From: an uncultured Litorivicinus sp. | GTDB lineage: Bacteria; Pseudomonadota; Gammaproteobacteria; Pseudomonadales; Litorivicinaceae | Assembly (NCBI GenBank): GCA_902558075.1 | Contig: CACECO010000001.1 | Span: 124,001 to 188,000 of the forward strand | Direction: 5' to 3' | DNA length: 64,000 bases | Shown here: in pieces, positions 48,825 through 58,255 of the stretch | How positions within the stretch are numbered: position 1 is the first letter of the stretch | Layout: every line of letters begins with the position of its first letter | The notes under the pieces: model-generated | What the model saw: only the letters and a program-made list of their open reading frames with translations | What the model was told of the DNA's origin: nothing | The model's database searches: none | Translations under genes and position numbers: made by a program

Positions 48825-49183
48825 GGGGACGATATGGATTCGACGCCGGTTACAAAACCAAATGTGCATGCCGAGTAGTTCTACAGTGCTCGTAAACCCA
48901 ACTGTGGACTCGTTAGCTATAACTGCCAACGACGAAAACTACGCTCTAGCAGCTTAAGCTAGACCCTGGGTGGGGATCGTCTCTGGTCTTCATCAACAGG
49001 GTTCGAAACAGAGACTCGCTTCAATGCTGTGTTCGGGGTTGAGAAGTTAAACTTTTACTGAACTCGGAAAGGTTATCCCTGTGCGTTGGGAGATCCCGAC
49101 TTAAATTGAAAAACGCGACTAAGCATGTAGAGCGTTTGATAGCGGACTGACGGACGCGGGTTCAAATCCCGCCGTCTCCACCA
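48825..49183 (+). ncRNA. ssrA: tmRNA (SsrA)
   Basis: 5' GGGGACGATATGGATTCGACG; tag ORF at 48925-48957 encodes ANDENYALAA*; 3' GGGTTCAAATCCCGCCGTCTCCACCA. Confidence 0.97.
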
Positions 49184-49246
49184 TATTCTAATATTGAGTA
49201 GAAAGTTCAATATTTTCAATATCTTATGAAACCCGCAAATTCCATT

Positions 49247-49268
49247 GTATGGAGTTTGTATGGAGTTT
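49247..49268 (+). repeat. Two perfect tandem 11-bp repeats GTATGGAGTTT
   Basis: GTATGGAGTTTGTATGGAGTTTGTA 64 nt past the tmRNA 3' end. Confidence 0.9.
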
Positions 49269-49292
49269 GTAACTCATTAATTACTTCCTTAA

Positions 49293-49367
49293 CCCACCCC
49301 TCTGCAAGGGCCACCCAGAGGGTGTCCGGGTACTTTTAGGCAAGGCAGCAAACATTTTTGTATTCTA
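49293..49367. repeat. Copy A of a diverged ~75-bp intergenic repeat
   Basis: CCCACCCCTCTGCAAGGGCCACCCAGAGGGTGTCCGGGTACTTTTAGGCAAG... compare 50457-50531. Confidence 0.6.
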
Positions 49368-49394
49368 GCCGGGAGGTATTTTGGGAGATTACAT

Positions 49395-49808
49395 ATGGAT
49401 TACATTCTAGTCGCGTTAGTCGTGATAAATTTTTTATGCCTTTTAGTTTTATGGCGAATTAAATCTTCCGCTGGAGACGATCAACGGTGGGAATTGATTG
49501 TTCAAATACTCATGGACATTAGACACCAAACGGAAATCGATGGAGCCCAACTACGTAGCCGAGAGGATCTAAGTAAAGTTGTTGAAAGCGCCCGCTTGAT
49601 TCAGGATTCTGCTTTCAAAATCGAACTCGCAACCGCAACAGCGCAGGGTAAACTTGACTCAATTTACCGAATATTGAGTGAAATTAAAGGTCTTGTCACT
49701 TCTATTGTAAAAACATTAGAAAGGGACGACACACATCCCATCCAAATAGCTTTGTGGCAGATAGATAATGCCCTAAGGAGCATAGACAGCAACACGAGGG
49801 GTGACTGA
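49395..49808 (+). CDS. Hypothetical protein, N-terminal TM plus predicted helical region
   Basis: 137-aa ORF, MDYILVALVVINFLCLLVLWRIK TM segment. Confidence 0.6.
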   Translation: MDYILVALVVINFLCLLVLWRIKSSAGDDQRWELIVQILMDIRHQTEIDGAQLRSREDLSKVVESARLIQDSAFKIELATATAQGKLDSIYRILSEIKGLVTSIVKTLERDDTHPIQIALWQIDNALRSIDSNTRGD

Positions 49809-49995
49809 TTTTTCTCGTACCTTTAACGAATGTAGGTTTCCAGAGGTAATAGACATGAGTGGAAATAGCGTGAATACAATTCTTACACTCGCTTTGTTGT
49901 TTTTGAGCTCAACTGCGAACACATGATTCCTCGACGATATCATAGAGAGAGGATGATGATTTCATTGTCGAAGCCGTTGAGACCGGGGGAGCTAG

Positions 49996-50370
49996 ATGGA
50001 TAAGTTATCACGAGCATTTGCGGCAGTGATCGGTCTGGCGTTCCCTTTGATGGCTAGTGCTCAAGTCTTTTTCTGCCAAATGACTGAGTTTGTCATGATC
50101 GATACCGATGGTTCTAACAAGCTCACCAACCAACGATTTATTATGAAAGTTCTGCCAAATGCAGTTTCATTTAAATCGGATGGTTACTTCCAAAATACCC
50201 GCGCCTCTGTTGATCTTTGGCGTGGATATGGCGAGTGGTCAGCTACCACAGTTAATGCCTTGACATATGTTGATTCGGTTTATCGATTTGGTGATGGGAT
50301 TTTGAATGTCTCGGCGGTTTTTCAGAAGCAGATAACGTCGATCAGAGCTGAGTGTGAAGAGGATCAGTAA
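49996..50370 (+). CDS. Hypothetical secreted protein
   Basis: Signal peptide MDKLSRAFAAVIGLAFPLMASAQ; no recognised family. Confidence 0.6.
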   Translation: MDKLSRAFAAVIGLAFPLMASAQVFFCQMTEFVMIDTDGSNKLTNQRFIMKVLPNAVSFKSDGYFQNTRASVDLWRGYGEWSATTVNALTYVDSVYRFGDGILNVSAVFQKQITSIRAECEEDQ

Positions 50371-50456
50371 GTCCCTAAGTAAGGCCCCGACGGCTTCTCC
50401 CATCACGTTGCCCCAATGGACAGCGCGACCTATGTTTACGGAAACTAAAATAACTA

Positions 50457-50531
50457 CCCCACCCCTACGCTAGGGCCACCGGGGGGGGTCCGGATACATG
50501 TAAGCAAGTCCAACCAATTTTTCTATTTTTG
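50457..50531. repeat. Copy B of the diverged ~75-bp intergenic repeat
   Basis: CCCCACCCCTACGCTAGGGCCACCGGGGGGGGTCCGGATACATGTAAGCAAG...; alignable with 49293-49367. Confidence 0.6.
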
Positions 50532-50562
50532 CAATTGGGTTCTTGCTGATGAAGACAGGGGG

Positions 50563-50796
50563 TCAGGAGTGTTGAAGATGCACACTATCGAAGAAGAGAT
50601 CCGTTTTTCCATAACCGGATTGACTATCTAAAATTGATTGTGGGATGTCGACAACGTTGCACTCGTCATCGTCGTACAAACTTTTGACGTGGGCTTTTGC
50701 AATCTCCGGATCGTCGGTCTCCACTTCCATCTCTTCTTCCAGAGCAATGTTGTGGTCTGAGAAATTCACGGTGTATTTAACGAGATATCGATCCAT
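50563..50796 (-). CDS. Small hypothetical protein (77 aa)
   Basis: ORF MDRYLVKYTVNFSDHNIALEEEMEVETDDPEIAKAHVKSLYDDDECNVVDIP; plausible composition. Confidence 0.5.
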   Translation of the reverse strand: MDRYLVKYTVNFSDHNIALEEEMEVETDDPEIAKAHVKSLYDDDECNVVDIPQSILDSQSGYGKTDLFFDSVHLQHS

Positions 50797-50816
50797 CAGC
50801 GAGTTTAAATTAGGAA

Positions 50817-51296
50817 TTAGTCACTAATCTTTTCACCGTTTTTGTATATGCCAGAATATTTGTTTCCATATACATCGTAATCCACGTAAGGACCTTCTCT
50901 TTTGCCGTCCTTGTATTCAACCCAGAACGATAACTCGCCATTGTCGCGATACTCCACCCAAAGACCTTCTTCTTTGCCGTCCTTGAATGCAACCTTCAAA
51001 TAAACCTGTCCATTAGGATGATAGAACACCCAAGGCCCTTCTTCTTTGCCGTCCTTCCAAGCACCTTTTTTCTCTAACTGTCCTTTACGATGATGAAACG
51101 CCCAAGAGCCTTGTCGTTTACCGTCTTTTAAAAAGCCTTCTTGAAGTCCTGCTACCTCACCCGTAAAGGGAACATCAGTAAACTTTTTGTAAAAAAGACC
51201 CTCTCTTTCAACAAGATCACCCCATGTTTCACCAAGACTGGGGATCGACAGGGAAAGGAGGATGAGTAGAAGAGGGAACCTAAGGTGCATCAACAC
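50817..51296 (-). CDS. MORN-repeat-type secreted protein
   Basis: Signal peptide; repeats KDGKEEGPWVFYHPNGQVYLKVAFKDGKEEGLWVEYRDNGEL. Confidence 0.8.
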   Translation of the reverse strand: MLMHLRFPLLLILLSLSIPSLGETWGDLVEREGLFYKKFTDVPFTGEVAGLQEGFLKDGKRQGSWAFHHRKGQLEKKGAWKDGKEEGPWVFYHPNGQVYLKVAFKDGKEEGLWVEYRDNGELSFWVEYKDGKREGPYVDYDVYGNKYSGIYKNGEKISD

Positions 51297-52090
51297 CCCT
51301 TGTAGTCCTTAGCGACACATTCACGGGCCAGCTGTTGTGCTTTGGAGATGTCTGCAGGCGTCATTCTTTCTGCGATTAGTTCTCTGTTGTAGGATGCGTT
51401 TTCGCCTCCTAATGATGCAGAGATGTTGAACCACATATGTGCATAGATATTGTCTTGTAACACTCCCTTTCCCTTGCCAAACATCACCCCTAGGTTTGAC
51501 TGCGCATCTGCATCCCCCTGTTCTGCCGAAAGGGTGTACCACTTCACTGCCGTCTTGTAGTCCTGTGGAACGCCATATCCATTTTCATGCTTCACCCCAA
51601 GATTATATTGCGCACCCGTATGCCCCTGTTCTGCCGCAAGGGTGTACCACTTCACTGCCGTCTTGTCGTCCTGTGGAACGCCATATCCATTTTCATACAT
51701 CACACCAAGATTATATTGCGCTCTGGCATGCTCCTGTTCTGCCGCAAGGGTGTACCACTTCACAGCTGTCTTGTAGTCCTGTGGAACGCCATATCCGTTG
51801 TCATACATCACCCCAAGATTATATTGCGCTTTAGCATCCCCCTGTTCTGCCGCAAGGGTTAACCACTTCGCAGCGGTCTTGTCGTTCTGTGGAACGCCAT
51901 ATCCATTGCGATACATCAATGCCAGATTATATTGCGCAACGGCACTCCCCTGTTCTGCGAGAGGTATCCATTCCTGCAGTGCAGTAGCAAAATCTCCGCT
52001 TTGTGCGGCGGTCAGTCCTTTCTGGAAATCCCCAGCAGAACTTGGCAAGGAGAGGGATAGGAGGATAAGGATTGATAACAGTTGTTTCAT
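51290..52090 (-). CDS. Sel1-repeat (TPR-like) secreted protein
   Basis: Signal peptide; ~5 repeats AQYNLGVMYENGYGVPQDYKTAVKWYTLAAEQG. Confidence 0.92.
   Translation of the reverse strand: MKQLLSILILLSLSLPSSAGDFQKGLTAAQSGDFATALQEWIPLAEQGSAVAQYNLALMYRNGYGVPQNDKTAAKWLTLAAEQGDAKAQYNLGVMYDNGYGVPQDYKTAVKWYTLAAEQEHARAQYNLGVMYENGYGVPQDDKTAVKWYTLAAEQGHTGAQYNLGVKHENGYGVPQDYKTAVKWYTLSAEQGDADAQSNLGVMFGKGKGVLQDNIYAHMWFNISASLGGENASYNRELIAERMTPADISKAQQLARECVAKDYKGC
51515..51960 (-). repeat. 108-bp in-gene tandem repeat (36-aa Sel1 units)
   Basis: CCTGTTCTGCCGCAAGGG-type phrase recurs near 51515, 51623, 51731, 51839 and 51947. Confidence 0.9.
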
Positions 52091-52396
52091 ATCAATGTTT
52101 CTTTGATCTGGCAGATCTCAACCCGCTGATGTTTCTTGACGTAAAAGAGTACATCAGAGGACTTTTCAAAGCGATATGCGTATATCGTAAATAGTCAATT
52201 ACGGTACTTAAATAATTCTCAATATTAACAGCTACTTAAACCGGAAATCCCTTTTAAGATAAGGGCTTTTAGGTTAAACTATATCTATCTGGAATACCCA
52301 TAAGCCTTTGGCTCCAAACGTACTTAGTACGCAGACAAACCCTCTAGGAATTTCTTGCCAGCTGTCTGCATAAAATTATCTAAAGTAAAGAAGTCT

Positions 52397-53929
52397 ATGT
52401 CTAAAAACCATGTCTTTAAAACGGTCGTAGACCAACTCTCAATAGAATTAAATAACCGTTGTACTGAATACGGATTTAAGAAAAAAGTTACTTTAAAACT
52501 TTCCAATCTTAGACAGTCAGTCGAAGCCCTTATAGGACCTGTTCTCGTTGCAGAGAATAAGCACCCCGGGAGGGGATATGCTTCCATTCATCTAAATAAG
52601 AACTGGTATAGCAATTCCACGCGCTATAAGAAAAATCCCTCCTATCGTATCTTCGTAGAGAGAGCCTATCGTGGTCTACTCCATTTAGGGTATCTATCCC
52701 AAGCAAAAGCAGGGGTATCTTGTGGCTCTCGTGGTCTATATCTCACACGTTATAGGGCAACTCCCAACTTACTTAAACTTTTCGATTCCAAATCCCTCAC
52801 CGAACTTCCTGTTGTCTTCGCAGGACAGAGTGAGGTTAATGAAACCATCCGAGTTCAACATACTTATCAAAAACAAATACCCACCAACCAAGTGGATCAA
52901 TACGGACAACCTAAAACACGCACAGTGAAATATACAGAACTGATCGAGTACGAAGACACAGATCAAACCAATCAAATGCGTCACAACCTACAGCTGATCA
53001 ATAACCGAATCATGAATAAGTGGATCGATCTTGAGTTAAGTCAGGAGGAGTACACCAAGTTGGTTACACTGATGGCCAAGAGAAATAAAGATCATCTTGG
53101 AGAGAATCCCGACGATTTTCGCCCATTGATGCTGTCAAAGCTAAAGCTCTACCGTGTGTTTAATGATAGTGACTTTCAAACAGGTGGACGTTTTTATGGT
53201 GGCTGGTGGCAGGAAATACCATCGGAGTACAGAGACCGCATCGTGATTGATGGCAAAAGAACCGTACAGCTCGACTACTCTGGCTTACACCCGCATATTC
53301 TGTATCGCGAAAAGGGCCTTGAACTAGACGGTGATCCCTATGACATCGGCCTCACTCCGAACCGGAATACGGAGGACACGACTGGTTTCCGAAAAATGAT
53401 AAAGCAATGTTTTAACGCAATGCTTAACGCAGATAAGTGGATGCAACGGGCGCCACGAGGAAGCCAGCTGGGCCGCTATGGTGTCACTTGGAAACAGATC
53501 GTTAACGCGATAAAAGCAAAACATCCAGCGATTGCAGACCAGTTTTTTTCAGGAGCCGGATTGGGACTCCAACGGATAGATAGTGATCTCGCTGAAGAGA
53601 TCATGGTGACTTTAATCCAACGTTGCTCCGAAATTGTGGTTCTACCCGTACATGACAGTTTTATCGTCCATCATGGATATGAAACCGAACTTAGAGAGGC
53701 AATGGAAGATGCGTATCTTCAGAAATACGGAGCAATGCCGAAATTGAAGGCATCATATGAGATGCGTGTTGAGTCTACTGGTGTTCCTGACTTAGGAAGT
53801 TGGAATCACCAATCAGCGAACGACGATAGTTTAGTAGACTTGCTGGAGCTGTCTGAGAGCATCCCAAATGAGCGAAGGCTCAATCTTTTCCGATCACGAC
53901 CTTATTCAGCATCTACTGCCGTCATTTAA
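52397..53929 (+). CDS. Putative family A (Pol I/T7 RNAP-like) palm-fingers polymerase, uncharacterised
   Basis: Motif A-like VQLDYSGLHPHILY (53264-53305), O-helix-like RKMIKQCFNAMLNA (RxxxKxxxNxxxNA), LQRIDSDLAEEIM, motif C-like VVLPVHDSFIV (HD at 53651-53656). Confidence 0.65.
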   Translation: MSKNHVFKTVVDQLSIELNNRCTEYGFKKKVTLKLSNLRQSVEALIGPVLVAENKHPGRGYASIHLNKNWYSNSTRYKKNPSYRIFVERAYRGLLHLGYLSQAKAGVSCGSRGLYLTRYRATPNLLKLFDSKSLTELPVVFAGQSEVNETIRVQHTYQKQIPTNQVDQYGQPKTRTVKYTELIEYEDTDQTNQMRHNLQLINNRIMNKWIDLELSQEEYTKLVTLMAKRNKDHLGENPDDFRPLMLSKLKLYRVFNDSDFQTGGRFYGGWWQEIPSEYRDRIVIDGKRTVQLDYSGLHPHILYREKGLELDGDPYDIGLTPNRNTEDTTGFRKMIKQCFNAMLNADKWMQRAPRGSQLGRYGVTWKQIVNAIKAKHPAIADQFFSGAGLGLQRIDSDLAEEIMVTLIQRCSEIVVLPVHDSFIVHHGYETELREAMEDAYLQKYGAMPKLKASYEMRVESTGVPDLGSWNHQSANDDSLVDLLELSESIPNERRLNLFRSRPYSASTAVI

Positions 53930-54033
53930 TTTACTGTTTCAACAGTCTGAAAATAATCTGATAATGAGAGAACTCGGTAGCTGGATTTACCTTCAACGCG
54001 TATCGAATTCGATGAATTGATAGGTGATACTCA

Positions 54034-54519
54034 ATGAACTCCAAATTAGTCTACATGTTCATCCTATTTCTGCTTGGCACAAATGAAGCAATCTCGTGTC
54101 AACCAGCGCCGAGCTATTTATACCCAGATTCGTTCTCAGGTTCCGGTCAGGAACGCGGAAACCCGTGTGCTAATCTTTATTATCCCTACCACCCCGACAT
54201 TTTCTATGCACGTATTTTAATACTTTTTCCGATTCTTTCGCTCCTTAGTTATGGATTGATTGTTTTATACCGCATTGTTCAACATCGAATCTTGAGTAAA
54301 AACAGATTAGCTAGCTTAAAACAATATCTGGCCATTACAGCGATACAGGTATTCGACCTAGCGTTGATCTCTTTAGGTTTATGCACAGCGATTTCTTTCT
54401 ATATTTGGTTTTTCGTCACTCCAACAGTCGTCGGTTTTGCTTTCGCTTATTTTGCGTTGGTGCTGTTTCGATGTTCATTATGTAAAACACAGCCTTTTTT
54501 GAGTTTTACGAGCCAGTAG
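54034..54519 (+). CDS. Multi-TM hypothetical protein, paralog 1
   Basis: MNSKLVYMFILFLLGTNEA...; similar to 54597-55130. Confidence 0.65.
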   Translation: MNSKLVYMFILFLLGTNEAISCQPAPSYLYPDSFSGSGQERGNPCANLYYPYHPDIFYARILILFPILSLLSYGLIVLYRIVQHRILSKNRLASLKQYLAITAIQVFDLALISLGLCTAISFYIWFFVTPTVVGFAFAYFALVLFRCSLCKTQPFLSFTSQ

Positions 54520-54596
54520 AACTTAGGCAGTATTCATTGCTTAAACAAATTAACGCATTGTGTTTCGTGTTCAATAAATTGATCAGGTGATGCTCA

Positions 54597-55130
54597 ATGA
54601 ACTCAAAATTAGTCTGCATATTTATCCTATTGCTGCTTGGAACAAATAAAGCAGTAGCAACTTATATGACTATCCATAATTGGGAGGATGCCTTTGAGCG
54701 AAATATTGGTCCCTATGGATTACTGTCTTGGATTCACTCTTTGACCAGCCAACATTACCCCTTTTTCTATGCAGTCAGTTTAGTGACTGTTCCGACTTTA
54801 TTTGTTTTAGGTTACGGGCTGATTGTCATGGTGCGTTTTCTTCGAATCCGATACTTGTCTAACGATGCGTTCAATAACCAAAAACAGTATTTTACGATCA
54901 CTGGCATGCAAGTATTTGATCTTTTGTTAATCGCTTTATCGGTATCCACTTACCTCTGCACAACCTACGGCTATTGGTTATTACGCGACGCTACAATACG
55001 AGGAATTGCGACCACCTGTATGATCTTGGTGCTTGCTAGGTGTCTGATGCTGATGATTCAGGGGTTGTTCAAAATCTATCATTCGGTGAGAAAAAATCTT
55101 CATCCACTGAGCATGGAGAAAGACCAATGA
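54597..55130 (+). CDS. Multi-TM hypothetical protein, paralog 2
   Basis: MNSKLVCIFILLLLGTNKA...; shared blocks YGLIV and KQY..IT..QVFDL.LI.L. Confidence 0.65.
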   Translation: MNSKLVCIFILLLLGTNKAVATYMTIHNWEDAFERNIGPYGLLSWIHSLTSQHYPFFYAVSLVTVPTLFVLGYGLIVMVRFLRIRYLSNDAFNNQKQYFTITGMQVFDLLLIALSVSTYLCTTYGYWLLRDATIRGIATTCMILVLARCLMLMIQGLFKIYHSVRKNLHPLSMEKDQ

Positions 55131-55534
55131 ATAGACTCTTGAACTGGCTCAAGCTCAGAATAGAAAAGTCACCCATCCGCTTTGTAATCATTGGAGGGCC
55201 TATTGCTTACGGGCTTGGCATGACGATACTCGCGTTAACTTTTATTCCAATTGCGCGAGACCCTTTGCAGCCGGATGTACTCTATGTCTTCTACTTAAAT
55301 ATGGCGATTGGTTCTAGTCTGCCCATTGCTTTTCATTGGTTCGTCGCAAGATATGAACGAAAAGCAGTCCTTGCACAAGTCATTGCACTCATCCCAGCTG
55401 TATTCCTGTTTGGCATCGTTTCCTTGGGGGCTGGGATGATTGGGGTAAAAACACAATCCTGCATTGAAGATCCTGAAACAGGTGAAGTCAGGGATTGCCA
55501 GTACGGCTTTAGATTAATTACTGATAATGACTGA
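55127..55534 (+). CDS. Multi-TM hypothetical protein, translationally coupled (ATGA) to paralog 2
   Basis: MNRLLNWLKLRIEKSPIRFVIIGGPIAYGLGMTILALTFIPIARDP; overlap ATGA with upstream stop. Confidence 0.6.
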   Translation: MNRLLNWLKLRIEKSPIRFVIIGGPIAYGLGMTILALTFIPIARDPLQPDVLYVFYLNMAIGSSLPIAFHWFVARYERKAVLAQVIALIPAVFLFGIVSLGAGMIGVKTQSCIEDPETGEVRDCQYGFRLITDND

Positions 55535-55745
55535 GGATCTGTGTGATCAGGGTCAATGATGCCCGCAGATTTGAAGAATATTGCCATTGCTGATCGGGGA
55601 ATAAAGCAAATCCGAGTATCAAAGAAATTTGAGGACATTTGCATGAGTAGAAAATCCATCTTCTGCAAATTTTGCTTGATTGTCTTTGGTGCTCTGTTGG
55701 CTGAACACAGATTTTGTTTGCTTAGGCGAGGGCATGTGTAAAGTT

Positions 55746-56192
55746 ATGTTGAGTTCGATAAAAAGTTTGTTTGATTCTGTAGCTACCGATACTAACTTAG
55801 AACCAAAAGTTGATATTACTCGCAAGATTTCAATCGTTCTAATGATTGAGGTAGCACTTTCTGATGGTAATTTTGACGAAACTGAGAGAGTCCAACTCGT
55901 TTCAACGATTACAAAAAAGTGGAAGCTAGCAAGGCCAGTAGTCAATGATTTAATAAATTTGGCCGAGCAACAACAAGACTTATCGATCTCATTATTTGAA
56001 CACACTCATGTAATCAATCAATGCTTGTCCAGAGAAGAAAAAATTGGTCTCGTTGATTGCTTATGGGAGATAGCGTTTGCTGATGGACGCGCAGATCATT
56101 TCGAAGAGAATACCATTCGTAAAATTGCTGATCTAATTTATGTCGAGCACAAGGACTTTATTAAAAGCAAAATCAGAGTACGTGACCACTAA
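55746..56192 (+). CDS. TerB-like (tellurite resistance TerB family) protein
   Basis: ALSDGNFDETERVQLVSTITKKW...EEKIGLVDCLWEIAFADGRADHFEENTIRKIADLIYVEHKDFIKSK. Confidence 0.75.
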   Translation: MLSSIKSLFDSVATDTNLEPKVDITRKISIVLMIEVALSDGNFDETERVQLVSTITKKWKLARPVVNDLINLAEQQQDLSISLFEHTHVINQCLSREEKIGLVDCLWEIAFADGRADHFEENTIRKIADLIYVEHKDFIKSKIRVRDH

Positions 56193-56368
56193 AAAGTCAT
56201 TTGAAGCGCTGATGGCAAAGGTATGGAATATGAGATCAAGCCCCGATGTGCTTACCTTGGAATTTACTATCAAGTGAAACGCAAATACGCCCTATCGTTT
56301 GATAATAATAAGGCAGACTTATTTATCTCGTGCGGGCTTAATATCAAATAAAAAGGAAGTTCCGGTTG

Positions 56369-56592
56369 TCATTCAGGACTTACTTGTAATCTTGGAATGT
56401 GATCCACCATCTCCCGTTTCTGTGCCAGCTCCAAACCTGAATAGTAGGTCCGGCCGAGTTCTGTTGCACTCGCGGTCGAACGATCATGCCCTGTGAGTTC
56501 AGATGCTTTGAGTTCACCAAACTTATTCACCAGATAGGTTGAAAATGCGTGCCGAAATGAGTGGAACACATATTTAGAGTCTTCTAACTCTC
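56369..56592 (-). pseudogene. C-terminal remnant of a tyrosine recombinase/integrase
   Basis: ELEDSKYVFHSFRHAFSTYLVNKFGELKASELTGHDRSTASATELGRTYYSGLELAQKREMVDHIPRL after an in-frame stop: HxxR, GH and Tyr boxes but no N-terminal two thirds. Confidence 0.8.
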
Positions 56593-56779
56593 AAAATAGC
56601 ATCTAAAGTCGATGTGAGAGTCTCGCCTTCAGTTAATAACGTTTAGTTATCAGCGATTCTATAGAGATGGGCTTAAATAGTAGACTCTTAATCTTGTATT
56701 TTTGTCGACAAGAGGCTCGTTAATTTCGCGCGGGAACTCAATTGCTCTGGTACCACGCAGAACCTGATGTCTCAGTTGG

Positions 56780-57592
56780 CTAAGTAATATCGACATTTGA
56801 AGATAAAGCGTGTGAGACATACCAATCGTCTTGATTTGATAATGAAGTAAATACCCTTTGGTACCCGAATTTAGTTAAGTAAACGAAGATTTTTTCCCTA
56901 TTAATATTATTAAAATTATGTTCGACAGTAATGACGCCAATCTGATTTGTTGCCAGATTTATCGCTTCCAAGATCTCATATTCAGATCCTTCAGTATCCA
57001 AAGAAAGGTAATCGATCCTAGGCATATTAAATTTTGCCATCAACGTTACGATATTTATGCTTTCCTTTAACTTTTCGGTCCCTTGATTCTTTTTTCTTTT
57101 CCTGAAATGGGATTTGATCCCCGACAATTCTGGCGCATGATAATTGATAAATTCAACGTGTCCGACCGTTCCAGCCAGACATCCATGGAACCAATGACAC
57201 TCTCTTTTTTTGACTAACTCACGATCTCGCCAATAATCATTGGGTTCGACTAATACTCCGGACCATCCAAATTTTTGCTCTAGTAGAAACGTGTTGCTAG
57301 CTTGTTCACCGTCGCAAGCTCCAGCCTCGACGAATTGTCCTTGAAATGAAGGACCAAAAACACTTAACACAAAAATGTCTTGTGCGGTTTGGGATTTCGA
57401 ATCTTTAATAAGATTCTCCACAGTAACTTTGCTCAGAGAGGTCGAGTCCCATTTCGTCAGCAAATAGAACATATTTATACTTTTCTGAAGGTCACTGAAA
57501 TGCTGGCCAATCAAAGTCGATAGAATTTTTTTTGACAAACGGTTTATCACTTGTCTCAACTTCCATGTCATTGATGACTCCAAAGTTTTCAT
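56780..57592 (-). CDS. FkbM family methyltransferase
   Basis: FVEAGACDGEQASNTFLLEQKFGWSGVLVEPNDYW...IDYLSLDTEGSEYEILEAI. Confidence 0.88.
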   Translation of the reverse strand: MKTLESSMTWKLRQVINRLSKKILSTLIGQHFSDLQKSINMFYLLTKWDSTSLSKVTVENLIKDSKSQTAQDIFVLSVFGPSFQGQFVEAGACDGEQASNTFLLEQKFGWSGVLVEPNDYWRDRELVKKRECHWFHGCLAGTVGHVEFINYHAPELSGIKSHFRKRKKNQGTEKLKESINIVTLMAKFNMPRIDYLSLDTEGSEYEILEAINLATNQIGVITVEHNFNNINREKIFVYLTKFGYQRVFTSLSNQDDWYVSHALSSNVDIT

Positions 57593-57614
57593 GTCAGATC
57601 TACGGCACTTTATA

Positions 57615-57657
57615 ACATTAGTACTCAGTCATTAGTAACACTAGTACTCAGTCATTT
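57615..57657. repeat. 23-bp tandem direct repeat (2 copies)
   Basis: AACATTAGTACTCAGTCATTAGT / AACACTAGTACTCAGTCATTTCG; 15-bp perfect core TAGTACTCAGTCATT. Confidence 0.85.
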
Positions 57658-58255
57658 CGCGATGAATGTTGGAGGTGCTGTATTTGGATTTGCAACAACT
57701 GGAGAGCTCATGTTGTCGCTTTTAAATAAATTGGTCCAGTAACAGTCACGGATGCCAAGCGTTGGCGCTCGTGGGGCGAGCTTGTGAACTTTTTCCAGCC
57801 TTTATGCCTATTCATCGAATGGTCCGTGAAGCTGGCATCTTTTGCAATGGCACGACTAGGATTTTATACAGTACAGAATTTCTATGAGAGCGTTGATGAA
57901 AACAGCCTACTGATATGTTTTCTCTGTTCAATTGGCTTTTATCTCGAGTATGACCCCAGAATTGTAGGGCTTGGTGACAACGACAGTTAAACGCAAGACT
58001 ATCGTTAATCTATAGAAACTTCCTTTTGAACTGAATCAAACACAATCAAATTCTTCCTCAACACAAATATTTACGCTACAGGATTTCAACATCGAATTGC
58101 GGCTGCAACACCGCTAGATCGAAACAAGAAAAAAACACCGACACTTGCGGCAAAAAATTAAAATGAAAATTGATTCCATTTTTTGAAAGCGGCGCCCAAT
58201 TTGTGCTATTGTCTCGCCGCGATGATCCCCTACGATTATTTTTTGGAGAGATACT

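Follow-up and report, generated by a model that had tools for sequence, protein, structure and literature searches.

The DNA analysed here, called the window below, is a stretch of 64,000 nucleotides from an uncultured Litorivicinus sp. (contig CACECO010000001.1, positions 124,001 to 188,000). Our subject is a polymerase gene of the TV-Pol family, which lies in an island between the transfer-messenger RNA (tmRNA) gene and the gene for malate synthase G (Table 1). The gap between the tmRNA gene and the start of malate synthase G (58256) is 9.07 kb in the window versus 0.58–1.07 kb in five congeneric genomes (G009, G001, G010, G013 and G002), which puts the insertion at the tmRNA 3' end at about 8–8.5 kb. 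A first-pass annotation, made from the letters alone, had attributed the polymerase to an integrative element; the empty site in these five relatives bears this out. The G+C content of the island is 39–45% over most of its length, as against about 49%, and an Rfam scan of the island gave the tmRNA as its sole match.

The same site is occupied in the uncultured Litoricola AG-898-O07 (L018), where the tmRNA gene is followed by the polymerase gene, a GmrSD restriction gene, an intact tyrosine integrase of 448 amino acids (aa) and a 12-base repeat of the last tmRNA bases (CCGTCTCCACCA), 6.4 kb in all. The integrase of the window is cut down to about 67 codons. The 18-base motif of the tmRNA 3' end occurs exactly only at the tmRNA, the other match in the window, with 3 mismatches, lying in a tRNA-Leu; the 10-base GTCTCCACCA, searched between 48000 and 60000, was likewise found at the tmRNA only. 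As no second tmRNA 3' repeat is present in the window, the distal end of the element has decayed. The host genome (72% complete) has three Phage_integrase matches in 1.5 Mb and no other copy of this integrase. Its integrase truncated, its distal repeat lost and no other integrase copy being found, the window element thus looks immobile unless helped in trans. The island is therefore what remains of an integrative element that had entered the tmRNA gene and has since decayed; its polymerase is still intact. Adjoining the truncated integrase is an FkbM-type methyltransferase gene (56780–57592), which may have been inserted later and have cost the integrase its N-terminus.

Table 1. Features of the island, of the polymerase and of a more distant group (window coordinates unless a locus is named)
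Feature	Position	Strand	Basis or remark
tmRNA gene (ssrA), insertion target; 3' end = attachment site	48825..49183	+	ARAGORN; Rfam RF00023, E-value 5.7e-80
Island (about 9 kb), integrative-element remnant separating tmRNA from malate synthase G	49184..58155		Empty-site homology resumes at about 58155
Non-coding block 5' of polymerase gene, two small inverted repeats	52298..52334	+	About 90% identity to sister element L018
TV-Pol family polymerase gene	52397..53929	+	Intact open reading frame, 510 aa from ATG
N-terminal domain, residues 1–187: helical hairpin, winged-helix-like unit, long beta-hairpin (predicted)	52397..52957	+	AlphaFold model; weak Foldseek matches
GGRFY, residues 263–267, beta-hairpin with conserved Arg265	53183..53197	+	R 119/120
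Motif A VQLDYSGLHPHILY, residues 290–303, catalytic Asp293, sugar-gate position His298	53264..53305	+	D 120/120
O-helix RKMIKQCFNAMLNA, residues 332–345: Arg332, Lys336, Asn344	53390..53431	+	K 120/120, R 118/120, N/Q at 344 114/120
LQRIDSDLAEEIM helix, residues 391–403, Asp395	53567..53605	+	D 111/120, E 9/120
Motif C VVLPVHDSFIV, residues 414–424, His419-Asp420 in beta-turn	53636..53668	+	HD 120/120; DSSP
C-terminal remnant of tyrosine integrase, about 67 codons	56387..56587	-	72% identity to residues 371–437 of the 448-aa L018 integrase
Distant polymerase-like group	L194:2201-3424, L195:10314-11552, L196:9299-10522, L197:10405-11628		Integrase near L195 gene, integrase fragment near L196 gene

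Active site and predicted fold

An alternative upstream TTG start at 52355 would lengthen the polymerase to 524 aa. The four motif strings quoted by the first-pass annotation are exact, in the order and with the spacing it claimed, RxxxKxxxNxxxNA included, and they are not there by chance: among 120 distinct aligned relatives, on which all conservation counts rest, D293, K336, H419 and D420 are identical in 120/120 and R265 in 119/120. Asp313 of the fingers is conserved in 116/120. Position 344, equivalent to Tyr766 of Pol I and Tyr639 of T7 RNA polymerase (RNAP), is Asn in 82 and Gln in 32 relatives, rarely Tyr, Phe, His or Cys. Five residues past the motif A Asp, at what we take to be the sugar gate (Glu710 in Pol I, Gly542 in T7 RNAP), stands His in 73 relatives, Asn in 34 and Gln in 5. 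From these residues at the sugar gate and at the O-helix Tyr position we infer that the product is DNA rather than RNA.

The family is under purifying selection: the ratio of nonsynonymous to synonymous substitution rates (dN/dS) is 0.07–0.18 in eight pairs of close relatives. Between the window gene and its nearest relative dS is saturated, the proportions of nonsynonymous and synonymous differences being 0.20 (pN) versus 0.72 (pS). Besides, PHROG 4756, of unknown function, matches the window protein (E-value 1.1e-46) and 80/80 aligned relatives, so that the protein belongs to a genuine, conserved family. Pfam, NCBIfam and PADLOC searches with the window protein gave zero matches, as did PDB sequence searches with the protein and two profiles. 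In particular, Pfam matched neither PF00476 (DNA_pol_A) nor PF00940 (T7-type RNAP) to it, and a genome search with PF00476 misses the gene. As the first-pass annotation had it, no 5'-nuclease, 3'-5' exonuclease or helicase domain was detected in the window protein by Pfam or NCBIfam; a Pfam scan of the relatives likewise revealed no fused nuclease.

An AlphaFold2 model, built from an 80-sequence alignment, is of good quality (predicted local distance difference test, pLDDT, 86.9; predicted template modelling score, pTM, 0.86). When it was submitted to Foldseek, a check that the first-pass annotation had proposed, the 39 best PDB matches were all family A DNA polymerases (apicoplast polymerase, E-value 2.5e-5; Bst; Taq), the global TM-scores being low. 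Among viral models it matched phage proteins of 400–450 aa best, one of which, from Rheinheimera phage Barba31A, is annotated 'DNA polymerase'; Pol I proteins and some single-subunit RNAPs came after. In the model Asp293 ends a strand, His419-Asp420 occupy a beta-turn linking two strands (DSSP), and Arg265 falls in a predicted strand (263–267), directly preceded by predicted helices 189–206 and 216–234, where the thumb of a TV-Pol is expected. The reading as a stand-alone, divergent polymerase of the family A/T7 RNAP superfamily is thus upheld, the confident model matching family A DNA polymerases first. Modelled alone, the N-terminal 187 residues reach a pLDDT of 87; their PDB matches in Foldseek are weak and mostly winged-helix proteins, the best (E-value 2.5e-3) being a mitoribosome assembly protein. 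The domain may then be called winged-helix-like, and it probably binds DNA.

Profile-profile comparison backs both cousins: hhalign aligned the family with phage RNAPs around the HDS of motif C (81%, E-value 1e-5) and with Pol I at E-value 0.011, motif A being in the correct register, and four unrelated controls gave 0.14 or worse. The T7 RNAP-like look of motif C, pointed out in the first-pass annotation, therefore holds at the level of sequence; the fold, on the other hand, matches Pol I best. The protein could be a single-subunit RNAP, producing RNA primers or transcripts of the element's genes, a possibility that Yutin et al. raised for divPolA2 (PMC11348598). The hhalign result would agree with this, as would the single-subunit RNAPs among the viral fold matches and the weak Pfam RNA_pol matches of 3/80 relatives (best E-value 0.006). 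Against it stand the 39 best PDB fold matches, DNA polymerases without exception, and the T7-type promoter-binding N-terminal domain, which was not found in the protein. The Asn or Gln that replaces the Tyr of the RNAP O-helix in 114/120 relatives, and the bulky His, Asn or Gln at the sugar gate of nearly all, where T7 RNAP has Gly, also argue against a canonical RNAP. Moreover CCPol, the sole TV-Pol assayed, prefers dNTPs (PMC7581432). We consider an RNAP unlikely, and a canonical T7-type enzyme is rejected as the main account of the protein.

Family, relatives and carrier elements

The first-pass annotation knew of no characterised family with such a layout. This does not hold: the window polymerase is a TV-Pol, placed by the features that Iyer, Abhiman and Aravind described in 2008 in marine proteobacteria among others (PMC2579912); its phage counterparts are known as divPolA2 (PMC11348598), and biochemistry exists for CCPol (PMC7581432). 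Like the TV-Pols of 2008, the protein falls within 400–600 aa and combines a candidate thumb, an Arg hairpin, a palm with two Asp in the register of Pol I and fingers with Asp and RxxxK, with no nuclease domain fused to them. Also alike are the marine alpha- and gammaproteobacterial hosts and the neighbourhood: the 2008 authors found the subset with an N-terminal domain in restriction-modification hotspots, beside a lambda-type integrase or a gamma-delta resolvase (PMC2579912), and here an integrase accompanies 31/37 long loci, resolvase and restriction-modification genes being found inside bounded elements. The 2008 paper envisaged replicative transposons and predicted primase and polymerase activities; in contrast, the 23 elements delimited below are site-specific integrative elements, since they have attachment repeats of tRNA or tmRNA genes and tyrosine integrases. 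Another difference is the N-terminal domain, all-helical in 2008 and modelled here as helices, a winged-helix-like unit and a beta-hairpin. MAP_030 of Microcystis phage Ma-LMM01 is a candidate for one of the 2008 TV-Pols, its gene number being absent from the text of PMC2579912; it is in register over the hairpin, motif A and the O-helix (hhalign E-value 0.007), with a motif C that is seemingly HN.

DivPolA2 proteins were described from barbaviruses and other phages, a role in repair or as RNAP being left open (Yutin et al. 2024, PMC11348598). AUR84708, the protein that these authors modelled, matches the A2 profile with an E-value of 6e-37 (profile positions 43–432), and the layout of N-terminal domain and palm is shared, so divPolA2 is the phage branch of the family of the window protein. 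Their settings differ: divPolA2 genes lie in large phage genomes that encode a replicase of their own, those of the window type in small elements that have an integrase but in which no further replication gene was found. Iyer et al. assigned CCPol, from SCCmec, to TV-Pol; this enzyme acts as a DNA polymerase and forms a dNTP-using primase together with its partner MP (Bebel et al. 2020, PMC7581432; Rice 2023, PMC10061031). It resembles the window system by its A-family domain, its integrative element and its site-specific recombinase. However, neither partner, MP with its OB (oligonucleotide/oligosaccharide-binding) fold or the helicase, was found beside the window polymerase by position and annotation, MP-like OB folds being hard to see by sequence; flanking it are a Sel1-repeat gene, on the opposite strand, and genes for small membrane proteins. 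With Pol I the window protein shares the fold and the register of motif A, of the O-helix Arg and Lys and of motif C; it differs by having no exonuclease domains and no Pfam DNA_pol_A match, and its family by Asn or Gln for the O-helix Tyr, His or Asn for the motif A Glu and HDS for HDE. Pipolins too are integrative elements encoding their own polymerase, which is a primer-independent family B enzyme (PMC7385651, PMC10061031), not a family A-like one as here.

Relatives are widely scattered. By tblastn 247 phage records were found, all below 60% identity, including Rheinheimera phages (barbaviruses), large Vibrio and Aeromonas phages and a Shewanella phage, plus three plasmid matches. A profile scan of bacterial genomes returned at least 165 loci, 80 of which were kept for the alignment and for locus counts; these come mostly from marine Alphaproteobacteria (SAR116, Rhodobacterales), with Gammaproteobacteria in addition, and the closest to the window protein is that of L018 (66% identity). 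In viral contigs a profile scan added 36 relatives, a single-protein scan none. Prevalence is low, 3/272 high-quality gammaproteobacterial genomes having the polymerase. Phage and bacterial members are intermingled in the tree of 120 (12 changes, 7 of them forced by well-supported branches), with divPolA2 members interleaved among those of integrative elements, and the proteins of the window's genus fall in several separate lineages. Such mixing and dispersal indicate repeated horizontal transfer.

At 51 of the 80 genome loci the polymerase has a tyrosine integrase of one homologous group nearby (Pfam Phage_integrase, frequently combined with DUF6538); where 15 kb or more of context is available, the share is 31/37. 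We could delimit 23 elements of 6.4–14.5 kb, bounded by exact copies of tRNA or tmRNA 3' ends (12–72 bp) and each containing integrase and polymerase. Their targets are Gly, Ser, Arg, Thr, Leu, Pro, Ala, Cys, Val, Tyr, Gln and Lys tRNAs and the tmRNA. Their cargo varies and includes restriction-modification genes of types I, II, III and IV, resolvases and MORN-repeat proteins. Of the Pfam families in 105 cargo proteins, the 25 commonest include no helicase, primase, capsid or relaxase, save helicase-like motor subunits of restriction enzymes, and no packaging or capsid-remodelling gene such as typifies satellites of the phage-inducible chromosomal island (PICI) or P4 kind.

Several side observations concern these relatives. 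In a viral contig (G313:C1:9700-21444, locus L131) three tandem units of TV-Pol plus short tyrosine recombinase, 99.5–99.97% identical, follow phage head genes (terminase, portal and capsid, as judged from open reading frames); two are 3.35 kb apart, the third farther owing to extra DNA, and the array could be a recent amplification, a repeated integration or an assembly artefact. ORF100 of the cholera phage ICP1 (Vibrio phage, HQ641347.1, 54088–54675), annotated as a hypothetical protein, is matched when a relative is used as query. The polymerase gene is split into two reading frames in L005/L010 (G012:C86), L027 and L046, which reflects decay elsewhere or sequencing errors. Four genomes of the window's genus have a second, more distant polymerase-like group of about 410 aa (DFNAN..., ...KSFF.AAL[NH]C, ...IHDAIAV; Table 1).

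Around the window gene, the non-coding block upstream is about 90% identical to L018 versus 71% for the coding DNA, a weak contrast as two sequences are compared; it is possibly a regulatory or origin sequence. Across the family, upstream DNA is conserved between close pairs only and no common origin was found. A promoter scan gave no excess over shuffles; terminator-like sites number 5 against a shuffle mean of 1.7. The tmRNA gene serves as a hotspot for insertions in the window's genus: L165, L168 and L164 (G003, G008 and G014) carry 7–8 kb of inserted DNA there, with no TV-Pol detected. The other island genes include a TerB-domain protein (55680–56192) and two adjacent small membrane protein genes (54022–55130), whose first 69 bases are 88% identical (54022–54090 and 54585–54653), a local duplication with diverged 3' parts. 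Genes for Sel1-repeat and MORN-repeat proteins lie side by side (50817–52090) and contain internal DNA repeats 108 and 72 bases long; the MORN type is also found among the cargo of other islands (L045, L029).

Role of the polymerase in the element

The gene probably encodes a minimal, exonuclease-free TV-Pol DNA polymerase, with a likely DNA-binding N-terminal domain, that serves as the replication enzyme of a small site-specific tRNA/tmRNA integrative element. The integrase would release the element as a DNA circle, to which the polymerase would bind under the guidance of its N-terminal domain; there it would prime and/or extend DNA synthesis, borrowing the helicase of the host or of a helper phage; the copy number would rise, and the element would reintegrate at tRNA or tmRNA genes or be transferred. 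The window element would have been stranded by the loss of most of its integrase, the polymerase gene staying intact.

The first-pass annotation had hesitated between a replicase and an accessory or defence polymerase; only the former is retained here as the probable role. An anti-phage cargo gene, comparable to the reverse-transcriptase-type defence polymerases, would fit the frequent restriction-modification genes of the elements and the location of the island at an insertion hotspot. However, PADLOC gave no match on the island genes, the polymerase is constant and paired with the integrase while the defence cargo differs between elements, and its carriage by phages would be odd for an anti-phage gene. 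These three points reject defence as the principal role, and we regard it as very improbable.

Replication by the TV-Pol has itself to face several objections. No circular or high-copy form of an element was observed, and the profiles are nearer to phage RNAPs (E-value 1e-5) than to Pol I (E-value 0.011). No helicase or initiator gene is conserved among the elements, so they may not replicate autonomously. Shewanella phage KASIA carries the polymerase plus its own Pol I, primase, helicase and RNAP; since such carriers can already have a replicase, the enzyme might have a non-replicative role in phages. This would suit a gap-filling or repair polymerase that does not initiate replication, as would the stand-alone nature of the enzyme, with no helicase; but tyrosine recombination requires no gap filling. 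Repair was suggested for divPolA2 (PMC11348598), whereas CCPol-MP primes de novo (PMC7581432), and we find it improbable that gap filling or repair is the function in the elements.

The family itself was already known. What is added here is the exact ends of integrative elements, the Asn/Gln signature of the O-helix and the link between TV-Pol and divPolA2: a polymerase formerly 'unknown' is now placed, and the TV-Pols of bacterial mobile elements, for which no connection with phage divPolA2 was found in the literature searched, are joined with it. We advance, tentatively, a broader possibility: tyrosine integrase and TV-Pol might form the core of widespread minimal integrative elements targeted to tRNA and tmRNA genes, with a helicase-less primer-polymerase (O-helix Tyr changed to Asn or Gln), which would spread restriction-modification genes through marine Proteobacteria, the polymerase being repeatedly exchanged with phages. 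The exact ends of the 23 elements make the proposal of 2008, that TV-Pols replicate mobile elements, directly testable; and as no helicase or primase is conserved, the family suits the question of whether one small polymerase can both prime and copy an element.
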